64,000 nt of DNA from Leptolyngbya ohadii IS1 (GTDB lineage Bacteria; Cyanobacteriota; Cyanobacteriia; Elainellales; Elainellaceae), in the NCBI RefSeq assembly GCF_002215035.1, contig NZ_NKFP01000006.1:4121080-4185079 (forward strand), in the 5' to 3' direction. Within the stretch, counting starts at the first letter, position 1. Every line of letters starts with the position of its first letter. The position numbers were made by a program, and so were the translations under genes. Under the pieces are notes generated by a model. That model was not told the origin of the DNA. It made no database searches and saw nothing but the letters and a program-made list of their open reading frames with translations. Positions 9,015 through 45,174 of this stretch are shown here, piece after piece.

Positions 9015-10094
9015 TTACACGCCTACCGTGCGCTTGACTACCTGAGCCAGTTCGCCCTTCACGTACTTGGCAGCATAGTCTTCCAGGCTGAGTTGCTTGA
9101 TCTTGGAAGCATTGCCAGCCGTGCCAAACTGCTGATAGCGATCGGCACAAACTTTCTGCATGTACTGGATGGAAGGCTTCAGGAAGTAGCGGGGGTCAAA
9201 CTCAGAAGGCTTCTTCATCAGAGCTTCCCGTACCGCAGCGGTGATTGCCAAACGGCAGTCGGTGTCGATGTTGATCTTACGAACGCCGCTCTTGATGCCC
9301 TTCTGGATTTCTTCCACGGGTACACCATAGGTTTCGGGGATTGCGCCGCCGTACTCGTTGATCAGCGCCAGCAGATCTTCAGGAACGGAAGAAGAACCGT
9401 GCATCACGAGGTGGGTGTTGGGCAGACGACGGTGGATTTCTTCGATGCGGCTGATTGCCAAGATTTCACCAGTCGGCTTACGGGTGAACTTATATGCACC
9501 GTGGCTGGTTCCAATGGCAACCGCCAGAGCGTCTACCTGGGTTCGATCCACAAAGTCAACTGCCTCATCAGGGTCGGTCAGCAGCATGGAGTGATCGAGT
9601 TCACCCTCGAAGCCATGACCATCTTCCGCTTCCCCTTTGCCCGTCTCCAGCGAACCCAGACAGCCCAGCTCACCTTCTACAGATGCGCCGATCGCGTGAG
9701 CCACTTTCACCACTTCAGCAGTGACGTTGACGTTGTACTCGTAGCTAGCGGGGGTCTTAGCGTCTGCTTCCAGAGAACCGTCCATCATGACGCTGGTGAA
9801 GCCGTTCTTGATTGCGGAGTAGCAGGTTGCAGGCTCGTTACCGTGATCCTGGTGCATCACGATCGGAATATGAGGATAGGTTTCAACCGCAGCCAGAATC
9901 AGGTGACGGAGGAAGTTTTCCCCAGCGTACTTGCGGGCACCACGAGAAGCTTGCAGAATCACAGGGCTATCAGTTTCGTTCGCAGCCTGCATGATTGACT
10001 GGATCTGCTCCATGTTGTTGACATTGAACGCAGGAATGCCGTATCCATTCTCGGCGGCGTGATCCAGCAGCAGTCGCATTGGCACAAGTGCCAT
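9015..10094 (-). CDS. fba: Class II fructose-1,6-bisphosphate aldolase
   Basis: This zinc-dependent aldolase works in glycolysis and the Calvin cycle and may act on sedoheptulose bisphosphate as well. Its 359 residues match the Calvin-type class II family. Motifs include [14 protein letters not shown] near the N-terminus, the zinc-binding VMHQDHGN (about residues 79-86), the SVMMDGS loop, [18 protein letters not shown] with a zinc-ligand His, and the MHGSSSVP phosphate loop followed by KINIDTD. A strong ribosome-binding site, AGGAGG 5 bases before the ATG, supports the start. The gene is transcribed alone towards a clear terminator. The 253 bases between it and divergent ychF carry both promoters, which I cannot place exactly. 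Confidence 0.97.
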
Positions 10095-30857: not shown

Positions 30858-31745
30858 TTGGCAAGTAGCTGGTGGGAAATTCAGATTGGGGCTGATCCGG
30901 CGGCGGAGGAACTGCTGTTCTGGCGGTTGCAGGAGTTTGGCTGTCGCGGCATGGTGAGCGAATCTCGCGGCAATACCTATACCGTGAAGGCTTACCTGCC
31001 CCAGGTGAAATCCCAGCAGCTCGATTTGGCGGCGCTAGCGCTTTTGCTGAAGCAGGATCTCCTCTGCGCCGAACTGCCTGCCCCGATCGTCCAATGGCAC
31101 TTAATTGACGAAGAGGACTGGTCAAAGAGCTGGAAGGATCACTGGCACCCGGAACCGATCGGCGATCGTTTTCTGATTAATCCTGCCTGGCTACCCATCC
31201 CGGAAACCGATCGTCTGATCATCAAGCTCGATCCGGGAGTTGCCTTTGGCACGGGGGCACACGCGACAACCCAGCTTTGCCTGGAAGCCTTAGAAATGCG
31301 ACTGGATAATCCGCCTCCGGGAACGATTATTGCCGATATCGGCTGCGGTTCCGGCATTCTCTCGGTAGGGGCGATTCTATTAGGCGCGGAAAAAGCCTAC
31401 GCCGTAGACACAGACATCCTGGCGGTGGATGCCACCAAGAGCAACGTGGAATTGAACGAACTGCCGCCCGATCGCCTGATTGTGGAAGAGGGCAGTCTGG
31501 ATCACCTGAAGGAAATGCTGACCACTCCCGTCGATGGTTTTGTCTGCAACATTCTCGCGGAAATCATCCTGGAACTCATTCCCTCATTCAGCGATATCTC
31601 TAAGCCCGATACTTGGGGCATTCTCAGCGGTATCCTCATTGATCAGGTAAAGCCGATCGCCGATCGATTAGAGGAGCATGGCTGGACGATGGCAATTCTG
31701 TGGAAGAAGCAGGACTGGTGCTGTTTGAATATCCGTCGGGCTTAG
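30858..31745 (+). CDS. prmA: Ribosomal protein L11 methyltransferase
   Basis: Trimethylates L11 using S-adenosylmethionine. Motif I is [15 protein letters not shown]. Catalytic-region motif [11 protein letters not shown] and the linker [21 protein letters not shown] are diagnostic of PrmA. The N-terminal recognition domain starts [13 protein letters not shown] chose TTG 30858 because PrmA proteins begin a few residues before the WWEI motif and a GAGGAT element lies 8 bases upstream. The alternative TTG at 30843 overlaps the serA stop codon. The 295-residue length is normal. The serA-prmA arrangement is common in cyanobacteria. Confidence 0.95.
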
Positions 31746-31954
31746 TAGGGAAGAAGTTGGGCGATCGAGATCATACTCAACTCAATTGCCCTACTTCCAA
31801 AACCGTTTGTGAGTCCGCAAGTTCAGCGACTTACCTTTACAAAAGGCGCGTGAAGCCTATGTAATCTTTCTGAAAAATAATTAGCAATTCGGGTGAATAA
31901 CCGTTGCGGGGTGGGCAGACTGGAAGCAGGCATGACAGCAAAGCACCCTTCCCC

Positions 31955-33289
31955 ATGAGCATGACAACCACCAGTCTTCAGTCCGCTCTGAACAGTCTTC
32001 CTGATGGTGCTCCAGAAGACATCGTCAGGAAGTTTTTTGCACCTCAATTTCTAGAAGCCCTAGGCTTTCAAAAGCAGGAGGTTTATCCTCAGTACTCTAC
32101 TGGAAATGGAGATCTGGTTGACGAAGCAGCTAGAAAAACTGTTGGAGACGATATTTTTCTATATACAAAATCCAATCCTTACCTTCTTATAGAGTGGAAG
32201 GGAAGAAATATTAATTTATCTAATAATTCTGCACAGTATCAAAGCACAGTTAGGCAAATAAAGCGATATCTACTTGCGCCTAATTGTAAGACTGCACAGT
32301 GGGGAATCATTGTTAATTCCTGTCACGTACAGCTATTCCGAAAGCATGGACAAGTTGTTTATCCTGCAACTCAATGTCTCCCTTTAAATAACGATAATAT
32401 TGATGAAACGGTTGCCTTCATCCGGAAAAAGATTGAGACTCCAGCTAAAGCTCTAACAGTCGCAGTTTACAACAATAAGGGTGGAGTTGGGAAAACCACA
32501 ACCGTCGTTAATTTATCGGCTATTCTAGCTTTCTTAGGCAAGAAGGTTTTAGCAATTGACTTTGACCCAAATCAGCAGGATTTAAGCAGTGCATTGGGTC
32601 TTCCGTTAAGCAAAGGTGCTGTTTTTAAGGCTGTTACAGAGCGAGAAGCAGACCTTCAGAGTGCTATACAAACTTACAGATTTCCTGTCGGCAAGAAAGA
32701 GCTTACATTTGATGTGATTCCGGCTGATGAAAAGTTAGGGAATGCATCAGATGAAGCACTGGATACACAGATGAAACGGGACATCCTGCATCGAAAGCTA
32801 GAATCTTCAAGGCATGAATACGATTATATTCTGATAGACTCTCCACCCAATTGGCGCACCTTCAGCAAACTTGCTGTTTTTGCGGCTGATGTTGTTCTCA
32901 TTCCCACAAAGCATAACAACCTTTTCTCTTTAGAGAACGCAGCCACCGCGATCAAGAAGTTTATCCCAGAGATACAAGCTGAAAAAGCTGATGGAAGCCC
33001 AGTTGCATTACCGATCTTCTTTAATGGAGAGAAGATTACAGCTCCTCAAATGGCAACTGCTCAAAAGGAAATTCACAGCATTCTTCAAGTCGCTAAGAGA
33101 GAGGGATTTAATTTAGTCCCTTACTTTTTTCCCAAATACACTTCCACTACGAAAGACCTGCACATTCTTCAAGTCCCTAGCTACGCCATTATTGCAGGCG
33201 CGGCATTTTCTCGAACTCCTGCGGTTTATCGGGATCGATCGGCTCACGAGTATTACAAGAATTTAGCGAAGGAGTATTTCCTACAATGA
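31955..33289 (+). CDS. HsdR-N-like nuclease domain fused to ParA-type ATPase
   Basis: This 444-residue protein has two parts. Residues about 30-165 resemble the N-terminal nuclease domain of type I restriction R subunits. It has an acidic residue in GNGDLVDEAA, then LLIEWKGR (E-x-K core of PD-(D/E)xK nucleases) and QYQSTVRQIKRYL with the following Gln and Tyr. Residues about 170-440 are a ParA/Soj ATPase, with deviant Walker A NKGGVGKTTT, A' LAIDFDPNQQ and Walker B YDYILIDSPPN. ParA proteins move or position DNA. The next gene overlaps by ATGA and encodes a ParB-like protein. The gene is visibly AT-richer than its neighbours and lacks the GCGATCGC octamer, which suggests transfer. I chose ATG 31955; ATG 31961 is also possible. 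Confidence 0.85.
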   Translation: MSMTTTSLQSALNSLPDGAPEDIVRKFFAPQFLEALGFQKQEVYPQYSTGNGDLVDEAARKTVGDDIFLYTKSNPYLLIEWKGRNINLSNNSAQYQSTVRQIKRYLLAPNCKTAQWGIIVNSCHVQLFRKHGQVVYPATQCLPLNNDNIDETVAFIRKKIETPAKALTVAVYNNKGGVGKTTTVVNLSAILAFLGKKVLAIDFDPNQQDLSSALGLPLSKGAVFKAVTEREADLQSAIQTYRFPVGKKELTFDVIPADEKLGNASDEALDTQMKRDILHRKLESSRHEYDYILIDSPPNWRTFSKLAVFAADVVLIPTKHNNLFSLENAATAIKKFIPEIQAEKADGSPVALPIFFNGEKITAPQMATAQKEIHSILQVAKREGFNLVPYFFPKYTSTTKDLHILQVPSYAIIAGAAFSRTPAVYRDRSAHEYYKNLAKEYFLQ

Positions 33290-33978
33290 GTAATCCCGGC
33301 TACGTTGGAAAGTTGATGTATTTGTATTTGGATGAAATCGAACCAGGAGAAGGAACCGATTCTCCAGCATTTTTGATCAAAGCCTCTGCCCATCTCCTCA
33401 ATCAAAAAGGCGGCAGAAATTGGGTTCCTGTAATCGTCAAAGAGACTGGAAAAGACAAATATCAGGTTATTGGTAACTCATTCGTTTATGCCATTGCCGA
33501 AGAAGCAGGTTTAGAACGAATTTGGTGCATTATTGCAGATGACAGCAGCGAAACGGCTGAGGTCGTAAAAGTTTTAGCAGGTGAGCAAATACCCAAAATC
33601 AATCTGTCAAAAGCATCGAGAGACGAAATTCGATCGGGCTTGGAATACCTGATTGAACAGCCGGGAAGCACTCTTAAAACCGTTAAACTTGCGATCGCCA
33701 CCAATCGTATTGACGAAGCTCCGCGCCAGTACTGGAAAACGCTAGACCCAATCATCAATCTGAAATGTGGCATCACGAAGGGCAAAAAGCTTGATGCTCT
33801 AAAGGAGATATTCTATCTGACTCCTCAATCCATGCCCGATACCATTACCGATGCTGGCATTCTCCAAACAATGTCAACGGCTGACTTGAAGGCAATGGCG
33901 AAGAAACGCGGAATTACGGGTCTCAGCAAAATGAAAAAAGACGATCTGGTTGAGGCGTTAAGCAAGCCCTCGAAATAG
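33286..33978 (+). CDS. ParB-like N-terminal domain protein with C-terminal Rho_N/SAP-like motif
   Basis: This 230-residue protein overlaps the nuclease-ParA gene by four bases (ATGA), so the two are translationally coupled. Residues about 25-90 (NWVPVIVKETGKDKYQVIGN, then AIAEEAGLERIWCIIAD) match the pattern of ParB/Srx nuclease-like domains: a 'preferred value' strand, a GN/GE turn and an Ala-rich helix. The middle is helical and unassigned. The C-terminus, LKAMAKKRGITGLSKMKKDDLVEAL, has the two-helix pattern of Rho termination factor N-terminal or SAP domains, which bind nucleic acid. A partner role for the ParA fusion is the natural inference. I know no described system with exactly this pair. 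Confidence 0.75.
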   Translation: MSNPGYVGKLMYLYLDEIEPGEGTDSPAFLIKASAHLLNQKGGRNWVPVIVKETGKDKYQVIGNSFVYAIAEEAGLERIWCIIADDSSETAEVVKVLAGEQIPKINLSKASRDEIRSGLEYLIEQPGSTLKTVKLAIATNRIDEAPRQYWKTLDPIINLKCGITKGKKLDALKEIFYLTPQSMPDTITDAGILQTMSTADLKAMAKKRGITGLSKMKKDDLVEALSKPSK

Positions 33979-34040
33979 CCAGATGTCAACGTCCAGGTTT
34001 AGCTTATCTGCTCCTTCTGAGGCAGCAAATCGATCGTCCT

Positions 34041-34071
34041 AAAAAAGCGATCGGGGAGTTCTAGCCTCCCC
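34041..34071 (-). terminator. Hairpin with distal T-run; probable terminator of the DUF5872-like gene
   Basis: On the minus strand GGGGAG-N7-CTCCCC is followed by GATCGC and six Ts. It lies 40 bases past the stop of the minus-strand gene and about 65 bases past the convergent ParB-like gene, and could serve both. Confidence 0.6.
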
Positions 34072-34110
34072 TATTCATCACTTAATCGCTGCTCGATACA
34101 ATCATCGACT

Positions 34111-34989
34111 TTATCCCTTTGCCCGCTGAACGGCTTCTTCCAGTTCTTCCCGCGACATTTTACTGCGTCCGCCGATCTTTAGTTCCTTTGCCTGTTCATA
34201 CAGTTCTTTTTGGTTGATTCCATCATCTGAATCGTCTGATTTTCCCTTCTGTCTGGATTGCTTCTTATCAGACTTATCAGACTGCTTTGCTTCAGGATTC
34301 TTTTCCTTGTCAGCTTGCTTTTTATCTGATTTATCTGACTGTTTTGTCTCAATCTTCTCTTTATTGGTCTTCTTCTTGTCAGATTTATCAGACTGCTTTG
34401 CTTCAGACTGTTTTTTATCGGCAGTCTTTTCAGACTTCTTTTTTGAATCCTTTTTAGCAGTACCCTTCTTCTCCGATTCCTTCTCGTCTGCATCCTCGTG
34501 GTGATGCTCTTCTTCTACCTCATGCAGTGCTTTCTTGATCGCATCCGTATAGCCAACGTGCTGTTCACCGTGCTTTGAGGCTTCCTCTTTGGTATGCTCT
34601 GCTTCTTCCTTTTCTGCGTCCGTTAGTTTTTCCCAAACTTCCTTGGGTAGGTATCGCTTCGTCACATTTCCCTCACGGGCACGATCGTCTCCTGCTTCAG
34701 TCTGCCAATCCTCCTCAGACCATTCTTCGAGCGATCGCGCAGCTTCGTCTTTTTCGCCCTTATAGCCGCCGCCTTGCTTTTCGTATTCCCGCACCAAAAG
34801 CTGGCTTTTACGCGCAGACCATTGCCCCGGCTCGCCGCCCTTATCGGATGCCATGATTTCATCCTTGAGCCGTCGCCGCAGTTCGGGGTCGGTGTACTTC
34901 TCGTCGTAATTGTCGTGATGGGTTTCGTGATGCGTTTCAGACTGCTTTCCCTTTTGCTTTTTCGTTTGCTTTGCCTTCTGCTTCGCCAT
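34111..34989 (-). CDS. Highly charged DUF5872-like protein with Lys-rich repeats and Rho_N-like C-terminus
   Basis: This 292-residue, strongly hydrophilic protein starts with a basic Lys/Gln tract. A conserved-looking domain follows (about 28-150: YTDPELRRRLKDEIMASDKG, QWSARKSQLLVREYE, RYLPKEVWEKLTDAEKEEAE) that I recognise as DUF5872-like. Then come roughly 90 residues of Lys/Asp/Ser/Gln repeats (KQSDKSDKKQ recurring four times). The C-terminus, LYEQAKELKIGGRSKMSREELEEAV, has a Rho_N/SAP pattern very like the end of the convergent ParB-like protein. A role in DNA or RNA binding, perhaps nucleoid-like, is inference. GAAGGA lies about 9 bases before the ATG. Confidence 0.8.
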   Translation of the reverse strand: MAKQKAKQTKKQKGKQSETHHETHHDNYDEKYTDPELRRRLKDEIMASDKGGEPGQWSARKSQLLVREYEKQGGGYKGEKDEAARSLEEWSEEDWQTEAGDDRAREGNVTKRYLPKEVWEKLTDAEKEEAEHTKEEASKHGEQHVGYTDAIKKALHEVEEEHHHEDADEKESEKKGTAKKDSKKKSEKTADKKQSEAKQSDKSDKKKTNKEKIETKQSDKSDKKQADKEKNPEAKQSDKSDKKQSRQKGKSDDSDDGINQKELYEQAKELKIGGRSKMSREELEEAVQRAKG

Positions 34990-42881: not shown

Positions 42882-45174
42882 GGTCTAAATTTCCTCAAAA
42901 TCAATCTTTGATGAATACAGGTTCAAGAGAGCCAGATTAATGGAGTTGTGTCAGCAAAATTTCAGCACCCTCGACGAGGTGCCCAATGTAATAGCAGCCT
43001 GTTAATTCGATCGTCTAATTCGATCGGTCAGTCAGACGCCATTAGCACGGGTTTCCTAGGCTGTTTCGTTAAAGTTATCGACACAAACTTCAGGGCTAAT
43101 CTGGAACTCAGTGAGATGAAGTGACAATCAAAAAATGACTCACAAATCTTTGCAGTTTGCAAAATACAATTTGCGAGAAAGCCAATCTGTGGGGAAGAGT
43201 TTGAGCGCAACGCCCTGCAACTGACTCATTAGCCGAACAGGATTGCGATCGACAGCTCGTAGATTTGGATCACGATCGTTTGAATTACAGTCGAGCCAGG
43301 AAAATGTAGTTCAATCAACTTATTCAACCAACCGCGAGCAAACGTAGAACCATACTGCCCACAATGGATGCGACCCGCACCGAATAGCTTTCAACACAAG
43401 GATTACGGGTAGCGCATAAAGGCAATGAAGCAGTCAAAAAGCACTCGTTAAAGGCTCATTTTTTATTGAATTTTTAAGCCCAATGTACAAAACCGTTTCT
43501 GAATTCAGAGATCGAAATTTTAACAAAATCAGCCTTGCGACCTATTGTTAATTATTAAAAAATGATTAGGATTCCTCCTTCCTATAGCAACCTTTCCAAG
43601 ATATTAAAGAAATCAGACCCCACCTGTTATTTCTATCAAGTTAACTGTGGGATATCTATTTATTTTTACAAGTCCAAAAATGAAGTGAGAATGGGTGCAA
43701 TAAAATGTAATAAAAAATTCCAAAACTATGTAAAAAATGTAGCAAAACAAAAATCGATTCTCTGCTTTCTGACCGGGGAGGCAGCCCAAAATCTATCCTG
43801 TGGTAGATCCCTTTGCAATCGTTTTTCTTTCTAACTTCGGTTTTTGACTCTGCTCAGCTAGCCCTCTCATCTCGATCGAAGCAAGATCTTCACTTCCCAA
43901 CTTCTTCCAGGCTAGAGCGACGGCGTACCTGCAAAACCGCAGCGGACTACCGAATCGTCTGACACCTCCTGAATTCCTCAATTGTTGTTTTGCTCATTTT
44001 GTTGTTTTGCTTATTTGCCCTGCGGTTTGCTTATCTAGAAGTTGCTCATTTGCCCTGCGAGTTACACTTCCTTTCTTTACAGGAAGAAAATAGCCCACAG
44101 AAAATAGGCAAGAAATCAATAAAAAAAGAACTAGATAAAACAAGAACTGAATAGAAATAGATAAAGCACTACAGCAGATCAGACTATGTCTGGGAAAACC
44201 AGCTTTATCGCACACCCATCCTGCTGAAATGGGGGCAGTCAAGAAACTTTTGTAAGGCTTGTCGGATGACTCAGTATTTTCTTAGTAAGAGAATATAGGT
44301 GATAATCGTAGCCTTACTAACACTGCGTAATTTAGGTGAAGGAAGGTGCGCTCCCGTCCTCTAGCCGATCGCTGAAAACCGCGTGATTCATATGAATTTC
44401 AGCCTGATCTCCTGAACCTACATCCCCTCAGTCACCCGTAGAATTCGTATAGACCTATATAAAAATTGCGTAAATGCACTGACGGATTTTGTGTAATTTT
44501 TGCACTTCCCTATCAAAACAATAGCCACCCCCCCGGATGAGGGTGATATTTTGGCTATGTAGTCGGTGATTACGAAACACGAAGGTTGATTCGAGGTTGC
44601 TAATATGCAGCGGTTTTCGCTTAAAGCCTGTATGGATGTGCGGGCAATACTTCCGTGCGGTGGTTTTACTCCCCCATTTTGTGCCCCATCTTGTGTTCCA
44701 TCACCGCATCAAATTAAAGAGCGTGTGTAGGCAACAAACTGCCGCCTCGATCCGTTCCCCTAGTTTATATTCCCTGCTTGGTGAAGCTGATCTGGATAGC
44801 GGTTTACCGGAATGTCTGGGATAAATTCTCTCAGTGGGTAAGCCGTTTAATTTTGATTTGAAAAGCACAGCACAAAGTCCTGCTAAGGCATTTCCGCTAG
44901 GGCTTTAGAAAATTTTTGAGAAGGGTGCTACCCGCTTCGGGGTAAGGGCAGCGATCGTCAAGCTGCTCACAGATTTTTATCACGATCCAGCCGTGTTGCA
45001 CGAGGAGCGATCGCCATCGTCCTCCTCTCAATTTCGCATGGCTTCCAATCCGAGAAAGTTTCTGGGACAGGAGACTCGTTATGGTGCGCCTGGAAAAGCC
45101 ATCCATGTCCTGTCGTCCTTCCCAAACCGCCTCTTCTCTTAGACGTATTACTGATTTTGGGGTTCAAATAAGTC
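42882..45174. other. 2.3-kb AT-rich region without convincing genes
   Basis: The stretch separates the sugar importer and the mosaic extracellular protein. From about 43260 to 45000 it lacks the GCGATCGC octamer and is visibly AT-rich, especially 43440-44330. Short frames exist (for example 43562-43834 plus, 44597-44824 plus, 43994-44242 minus) but none has a recognisable domain, normal composition or good ribosome-binding site. A structured hairpin lies at 44521. The region may be decayed or horizontally acquired DNA, or a long regulatory leader. Confidence 0.6.
44521..44558 (+). other. Nested RNA-hairpin-like inverted repeat
   Basis: ATAGC pairs with GCTAT, and inside that CACCC pairs with GGGTG, separated by CCCC and GGATGA. 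A stem-loop with an internal bulge results. It lies about 615 bases before the mosaic protein gene and has no T-run, so it is not an ordinary terminator. Confidence 0.35.

Follow-up and report, generated by a model that had tools for sequence, protein, structure and literature searches.

A nuclease-like ParA fusion and its ParB-like partner recur across cyanobacteria as a possible DNA-interference module

Introduction

ParA-type ATPases position plasmids, chromosomes and carboxysomes, and the ParA/Soj proteins among them dimerise on ATP and bind DNA without sequence preference. With ParABS, Soj/Spo0J and Noc, the locus described here shares a ParA fold with its Walker set, a ParB-type N domain and the gene order A then B. 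It differs from all of them in that a nuclease-like domain sits on the ParA, and that protein B has neither GERR nor ENxQR and carries helix-hairpin-helix-like (HhH-like) and Rho_N parts. It differs further in that no parS array was seen around the genes and in coexisting with ordinary partition genes on three plasmids. On these grounds an ordinary ParABS system was rejected, real as the ParA fold is.

A second relative is the RecB-like N-terminal domain of HsdR, with which A has E, D, E-x-K and QxxxY in common and in that order (PMC4454674). SF2 helicase, HsdM and HsdS are all absent from the pair, in which ParA replaces the motor, and with these parts missing and no fixed neighbours it is not an ordinary type I restriction system. 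According to excerpted text, ParB/sulfiredoxin-fold proteins occur in conflict systems, including Osa, GmrSD and DdrB-like proteins (PMC5512222). The likeness lies in a ParB/Srx fold placed in a nuclease setting; in those systems, however, the role of DNase or NTPase probably falls to the ParB-type domain itself (PMC5512222), whereas here the nuclease-like domain is on the ParA. As far as the same excerpt goes, an association of polyvalent proteins with ParA was not found (PMC5512222). ComEA-type helix-hairpin-helix binders resemble the middle of B in fold (middling Z), but B looks like a three-part adaptor beside ParA and not like a DNA-uptake receptor. Among the openly licensed PubMed Central texts listed by our searches, we found neither a description of a nuclease-ParA/B pair nor a ParA-type ATPase that aims a nuclease.

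The locus and its base composition

The window, a stretch of 64,000 nucleotides, lies on a 4.26-Mb contig of the 7.9-Mb genome of Leptolyngbya ohadii IS1. Gene A (31955..33289, + strand, 444 aa), a single open frame, and gene B (33286..33978, + strand, 230 aa) are flanked by a prmA-like gene (named by eye) and a DUF5872-like gene. The two genes overlap in ATGA, the ATG of B overlapping the TGA of A. They belong to a shared unit (31835-33984, + strand), defined by the DNA in common with the same-genus relative L009; its promoter-like upstream end (31835..31954, + strand) begins where this common DNA begins, and its downstream end (33979..33984, + strand) comes just after the stop codon of B, at the end of the L009 match.

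Within the upstream end stands the element TGGGCAGACTGGA (31912-31924, + strand), a conserved block in the window's clade from which the window differs by 2 mismatches. The relatives' version, TGGGMACACTAGA, lies about 43 bases 5' of the start codon of A, and the exact pattern was found in 8 of 129 loci, in a single copy each time. The conserved stretch 5' of A contains a single promoter-like element and not an array; no parS-like repeat array was found in 31700-34150 around the genes, nor did any Rfam family match at 31500-34500.

In base composition, gene A (41.9% G+C) and gene B (44.6%) fall below the window as a whole (53.4%), and G+C as low as that of A occurs in 41 of 2507 equal windows, in keeping with the AT-richness of A noted in the original prediction. 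That prediction had also read the absence of GCGATCGC as a sign of acquisition. There is indeed no copy in A and one in B (at 33691), but the sequence is likewise missing from 1041 of the 2507 equal windows, so the absence is uninformative and was rejected as such a sign.

Gene A: a nuclease-like domain on a ParA ATPase

The fusion stands as predicted: in one frame, an HsdR-N/PD-(D/E)xK-like domain (residues 1-160; 31955..32434, + strand) precedes a ParA ATPase domain (residues 165-444; 32447..33286, + strand). The former is recognised by Pfam HSDR_N_2 on residues 20-130 (E 2e-6, 28.3 bits against a cut-off of 25), which also matched 22 of 24 A family members (E 0.01), and the domain is likened to HSDR_N as well, both Pfam families giving matches. 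The alignments A1, A2 and A3 each comprise the window and 23 relatives.

The segment LLIEWKGR (residues 77-84) holds the E-x-K core, and the near-invariant nuclease residue set comprises E21, D56, E80, K82, Q101 and Y105. In a set of 44 A proteins, made up of the window and 43 of the 47 related loci (L049, L050, L054 and L055 being omitted for a broken frame or a contig end), there is no variation at E80, K82, Q101, Y105 or either Walker lysine, and position 56 is D in 43 of 44 and a gap in the other. With distant members included, E80 is kept in 87 of 87 proteins, K82 in 86, Q101 in 83 and Y105 in 75, while position 56 is D in 83, a gap in 3 and G in 1. HsdR and RecB-like nucleases are known to carry QxxxY (PMC4454674).

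In the model of A (pLDDT 88, pTM 0.88), the N-terminal part runs from helices through three strands (43-48, 54-59 and 77-81) to a helix (93-106), after which more strands follow. This order we take to be the one expected of a PD-(D/E)xK nuclease fold. In a structure search with the model, no solved nuclease stood among the matches listed; since ParA fills that list, this says nothing against a nuclease fold. The putative E-x-K nuclease core is supported by the Pfam match and the conserved residues. The nuclease-domain profile matched two HsdR-type proteins of the same genome weakly (E 0.04 and 0.2, probability about 1%); D56 and E80-x-K82 fall opposite D and E-x-K in the first weak alignment, and E80-x-K82 and QxxxY are matched in the second. 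A PDB sequence search with this profile gave staphylococcal leukocidin chains alone, none better than E 0.008, and these were taken as chance.

The ATPase domain is matched by Pfam AAA_31 on residues 168-342 (E 1.2e-35) and has a deviant Walker A motif, KGGVGKT (175-181), together with D204 and D295. Walker lysine 180 is kept in all 87 A proteins. The fold is Soj-like: residues 164-444 superpose on Helicobacter pylori Soj (6iub) with Z 28.1 and rmsd 2.9 over 255 aligned residues. Nine of the ten matches of A in its own genome cover the ParA part only. In PADLOC 2.0 no family matched A over its full length, and the matches obtained were confined to the ParA part (PDC-M28B at 157-206; mad8 at 177-304, E 0.036).

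Gene B: a three-part candidate adaptor

The AlphaFold model of B (pLDDT 90.6, pTM 0.72) has three parts. The first is a ParB/sulfiredoxin-fold domain (residues 5-102; 33298..33591, + strand), of which residues 9-102 match Myxococcus xanthus ParB (7bnk) with Z 12.5 and rmsd 2.2 over 90 aligned residues, followed by Noc, PadC and KorB and, lower, by sulfiredoxin. By sequence, Pfam ParB_N reached 0.007 on B, below its cut-off, and 21 of 24 family members reach 0.01. The second part is a helix-hairpin-helix-like region (residues 103-185; 33592..33840, + strand), where residues 102-179 match ComEA (8dss) at a middling Z of 7.0 (rmsd 2.2, 61 aligned) and next a type II secretion pseudopilin (Z 6.3). 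A Z below 8 may reflect merely a common arrangement, so the HhH reading draws in addition on L079, a distant B with an HHH_6 match (E 7e-5, below its cut-off). No HTH family was matched in B or its family members. The third part is a Rho_N/SAP-like C-terminus (residues 190-230; 33853..33975, + strand), where Rho_N matches B at 1.5e-10 and 23 of 24 members, and residues ~188-230 are equally close (Z ~6) to Rho N-termini and to a TFIID chain.

An overlapping ParB-like/Rho_N-like gene had thus been correctly foreseen; the idea of a ParA-ParB pair holds for a ParB-like partner and fails for an ordinary ParB. GERR and ENxQR are ParB motifs for CTP binding. Two ordinary ParBs of the same genome have GERRLR with ENLQR (L082) and GERRLR with ENLFR (L083), whereas B has GNSFVY, with GNSF replacing GERR, and GEQIPK. 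The B profile matches an ordinary ParB weakly (E 0.11), and B has one match in its own genome. By the features tested, in sequence and in model, B is ParB-like and not an ordinary centromere-binding ParB, since it has no GERR/ENxQR and combines an HhH-like middle with Rho_N.

Longer B proteins, in frames of about 260-317 aa, occur in eight genomes (G014, G133, G074, G062, G121, G008, G060 and G157). In this group the HhH-like middle segment matches the B profile twice and the Rho_N end is mostly unmatched.

Recurrence and joint evolution of the pair

The pair is real and recurs across cyanobacteria, well beyond the strain in which it was noticed. A scan of GTDB genome contigs, which reaches close relatives of A only, gave 47 related loci with 44-86% identity, 46 of them labelled cyanobacteria and one from a MAG called Tatlockia. 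B lies directly 3' of A in 45 of the 47, the contigs of the remaining two ending there, and the 4-base overlap is kept in 30 of these 45 (counted by hand). At a threshold of E 1e-10, the nuclease profile picked out 46 places, spread over 45 of 386 cyanobacterial genomes, and at 38 of the 46 places B follows 3' of A on the same strand; strong A and strong B co-occur in 38 genomes against 5.0 expected. One of the 38 places with A then B (G145) is a pair of remnants. The eight exceptions are a genome in which A starts 184 bases from a contig end (G078), one whose strong A is on another contig than its strong B (G133), a remnant with stops (G385) and five genomes with A but no B (G306, G280, G179, G089 and G247).

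Five non-cyanobacterial plasmid matches were rejected as fusions: they carry ParA or AAA annotations and, at 270-340 aa, have no room for one. Several of these five start within the nuclease region.

Between the window and L009, dN/dS was 0.15 for the nuclease part, 0.13 for ParA and 0.05 for B; among six of the seven members of genus g29 (L106 was omitted for a stop in A) the values were 0.56, 0.65 and 0.11. These ratios point to strong constraint on B (dN/dS 0.05-0.11), with the lowest dN/dS in its HhH-like middle. In A, a patch at about 215-285 changes fastest between the window and L009 (pN 0.34 at 241-280, against 0 to 0.10 in windows outside 201-300), and in g29 it again has the highest pN (0.126; ratio 0.92, with ratios of 0.22 to 1.13 along A). 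Such a patch may mark the surface by which A meets a partner that itself changes. Relaxed constraint in A fits too, and selection for change does not follow, because g29 ratios near 1 occur in several windows of A and not in the patch alone. Over the 82 of 87 A proteins with an adjacent B, evolutionary distances correlated at 0.92 (nuclease-ParA), 0.87 (nuclease-B) and 0.92 (ParA-B), with none of 2000 permutations as high, a correlation between A and B that is also expected from common descent alone.

A possible role in DNA interference

The build and spread of the pair suggest that it may be a weapon or selfish device directed at DNA, and not a machine of plain segregation. We tentatively read it, while giving this reading somewhat less than even weight, as a DNA-interference module that stands alone and moves horizontally; in it, B would sense DNA structure and the ParA dimer would license the nuclease. 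A would dimerise on ATP and bind DNA without sequence preference like ParA/Soj, so placing two nuclease domains on the DNA. B would dock on A as ParB does on ParA, would recognise a DNA structure (ends, junctions, unwound or incoming DNA) and not a parS sequence, and would trigger ATP turnover and cutting by A, the presumed target being invading or competing plasmid or phage DNA. We hold with a shade more reserve that the partition ATPase is itself the weapon: the ParA dimer would patrol with two nuclease arms, the B adaptor would direct the cutting, and B would have exchanged CTP and parS for the sensing of DNA structure.

Interference is favoured by the conserved catalytic set, the keeping together of A and B and the ordinary partition genes of carrier plasmids, as well as by changing neighbours, the lack of a repeat array, and a constrained B beside a fast patch in A. 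A contig of a viral collection that bears A and B, near phage-type regulators and an Erf-like gene, and the analogy to ParB-fold nuclease conflict systems, as excerpted (PMC5512222), argue in the same direction. Against it stand the five genomes with A but no B, PADLOC matches in the ParA part only, the fit of relaxed constraint, the lack of a nuclease structure among the matches listed, and the lack of a methylase or other self-protection gene within the unit.

Interference is also weakened by the flanks. The nearness to defence islands raised in the original prediction was not borne out, as a PADLOC scan revealed no visible enrichment of known defence families in flank genes (150 of 191, from 28 of 35 loci, 7 loci being lost) relative to control genes (144 of 185, from 20 hand-picked stretches, partly of other genomes). 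Flank genes matched 41 PADLOC families at 1e-10 and control genes 174, many of the latter being models of one helicase or ATPase type; because controls were hand-picked and 25 families of each list were compared, small differences are not judgeable. Among the flank matches are a type II methylase and restriction enzyme, LeoA/LeoBC-like genes and a few others.

If the interference reading is true, a segregation machine will have been shown to be turnable against DNA, and there would be a testable cause for uneven plasmid uptake and phage sensitivity in cyanobacteria, which bears on their genetic engineering.

Plasmid carriers and the question of segregation

The foremost alternative, which we consider unlikely, is a maintenance or segregation module for plasmids and integrated elements, in which the nuclease processes or resolves DNA. 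The intact ParA fold and Walker set and the ParB-type N domain of B suit it, as does the presence of B on 7 of 72,556 plasmid records, all of them cyanobacterial and each with A adjoining; B was found in 0 of 50,697 phage records. The carriers themselves speak against it. Two plasmids of Nostoc sp. UHCC 0870 with a close pair also carry ParM/StbA, and a third Nostoc plasmid, with a distant pair, has ParA and ParB nearby; on these three, therefore, the role of evident partition system does not fall to the pair. By sequence, these plasmids favour interference over plain segregation. Two further plasmids with distant pairs have no annotated ParM or ParB in the stretches read, though one of the two has a second small AAA ATPase. 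Segregation is further opposed by the many A-B copies on megabase contigs (for example L047, L052 and L067-L076), by the absence of a parS-like array around the genes and by the lack of GERR in B.

Probable movement of the unit

By sequence comparison the unit, so far seen in cyanobacteria, looks like one that moves horizontally. Acquisition as a unit, as originally proposed, agrees with the comparison to L009, in which 31835-33984 is shared at 83.6% over 2152 columns and both flanks differ. Neighbours change widely: serA, prmA and the DUF5872-like gene near the pair are absent from all other loci compared, and, counting six genes out from the pair, the most frequent gene family turns up in no more than 9 of 72 loci. 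A gyrA-like gene, 5.6 kb from A in the window, adjoins A in L063, and tolC-, tldD- or wbbJ-like genes lie some kb from A in L073, L075 and L077.

These data bear on a self-spreading, homing-like cassette, whose nuclease would cut unit-free sites for repair to copy the unit in, the ParA- and ParB-like parts aiding search or copying. We judge this less likely again than a segregation module. A 2.15-kb unit that alone is common to two same-genus species with different flanks, together with the patchy spread, agrees with it, but no terminal repeats or shared insertion sequence were seen at the unit ends among the loci compared, and several of the seven species examined in one genus hold the unit at one place. 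A clean empty site was not seen either. In the relative's genome (G386), the gene after prmA is a different one (P450-like by eye), and the unit is missing from that spot. The L009 flanks map to two separate places in the window's genome, which leaves rearrangement and relocation of the unit indistinguishable, and a simple empty site, with no exact before-and-after, was rejected.

Chromosomal housekeeping or a non-catalytic arm as less likely readings

Cyanobacteria are often polyploid, with many chromosome copies, and a housekeeping function on the chromosome, such as end repair or copy-number control, may be considered, at a probability lower still than that of the cassette. The HhH-like and Rho_N parts would fit DNA-structure binding, and in one genus the place of the unit is kept. 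The lone A of three genomes (L064, L065 and L066, in G179, G089 and G247) likewise has a common place, beside rpsB/tsf-like genes (by eye). On the other hand, the distribution is patchy, a strong A being present in 45 of the 386 genomes, the pair is found on plasmids too, and neighbours change. In the lone A proteins, E, D, E-x-K and the Walker residues are intact and QxxxL replaces QxxxY; from their sequences, A may act alone there.

Type Ia ParA proteins bear an HTH at the corresponding position, and a dead DNA-binding arm replacing it, which would accord with its same place in the protein and with L098, is improbable, and the least probable of these readings, as E, D, E-x-K and Q-x-x-x-Y are retained in nearly all other members. 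L098 (G157) lacks D56 and K82 with its frame intact and B present, and is probably, by sequence, a natural nuclease-dead member.

Further features of the region and its relatives

The convergent neighbour (34111-34989, - strand) matches DUF5872 just below the cut-off, has SDKSDKK repeats and a C-terminus that is Rho_N-like by eye, and matches two phage families of unknown function; BLASTP gave no real similarity between it and B. Farther along the window, a sugar-binding-type lipoprotein gene and a large Calx-beta/DUF4347-like gene (both named by eye) flank an AT-rich stretch of 2.3 kb (42882-45174; 41-44% G+C in two 1-kb windows) that has no additional ORF of 100 aa.

L009 has, at 9152-9186, a repeat of about 35 bases (CCCCCTAAATCCCCC...GGGGGA) that resembles a hairpin and is present in dozens of copies in the window's genome. 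In a second clade (L034, L038, L039, L042, L043 and L045), the leader 5' of A contains a hairpin, for example AACCGTC...GACGGTT (by eye), which in most members follows a TACACTAA-like element and is possibly an attenuator, to judge from its sequence.
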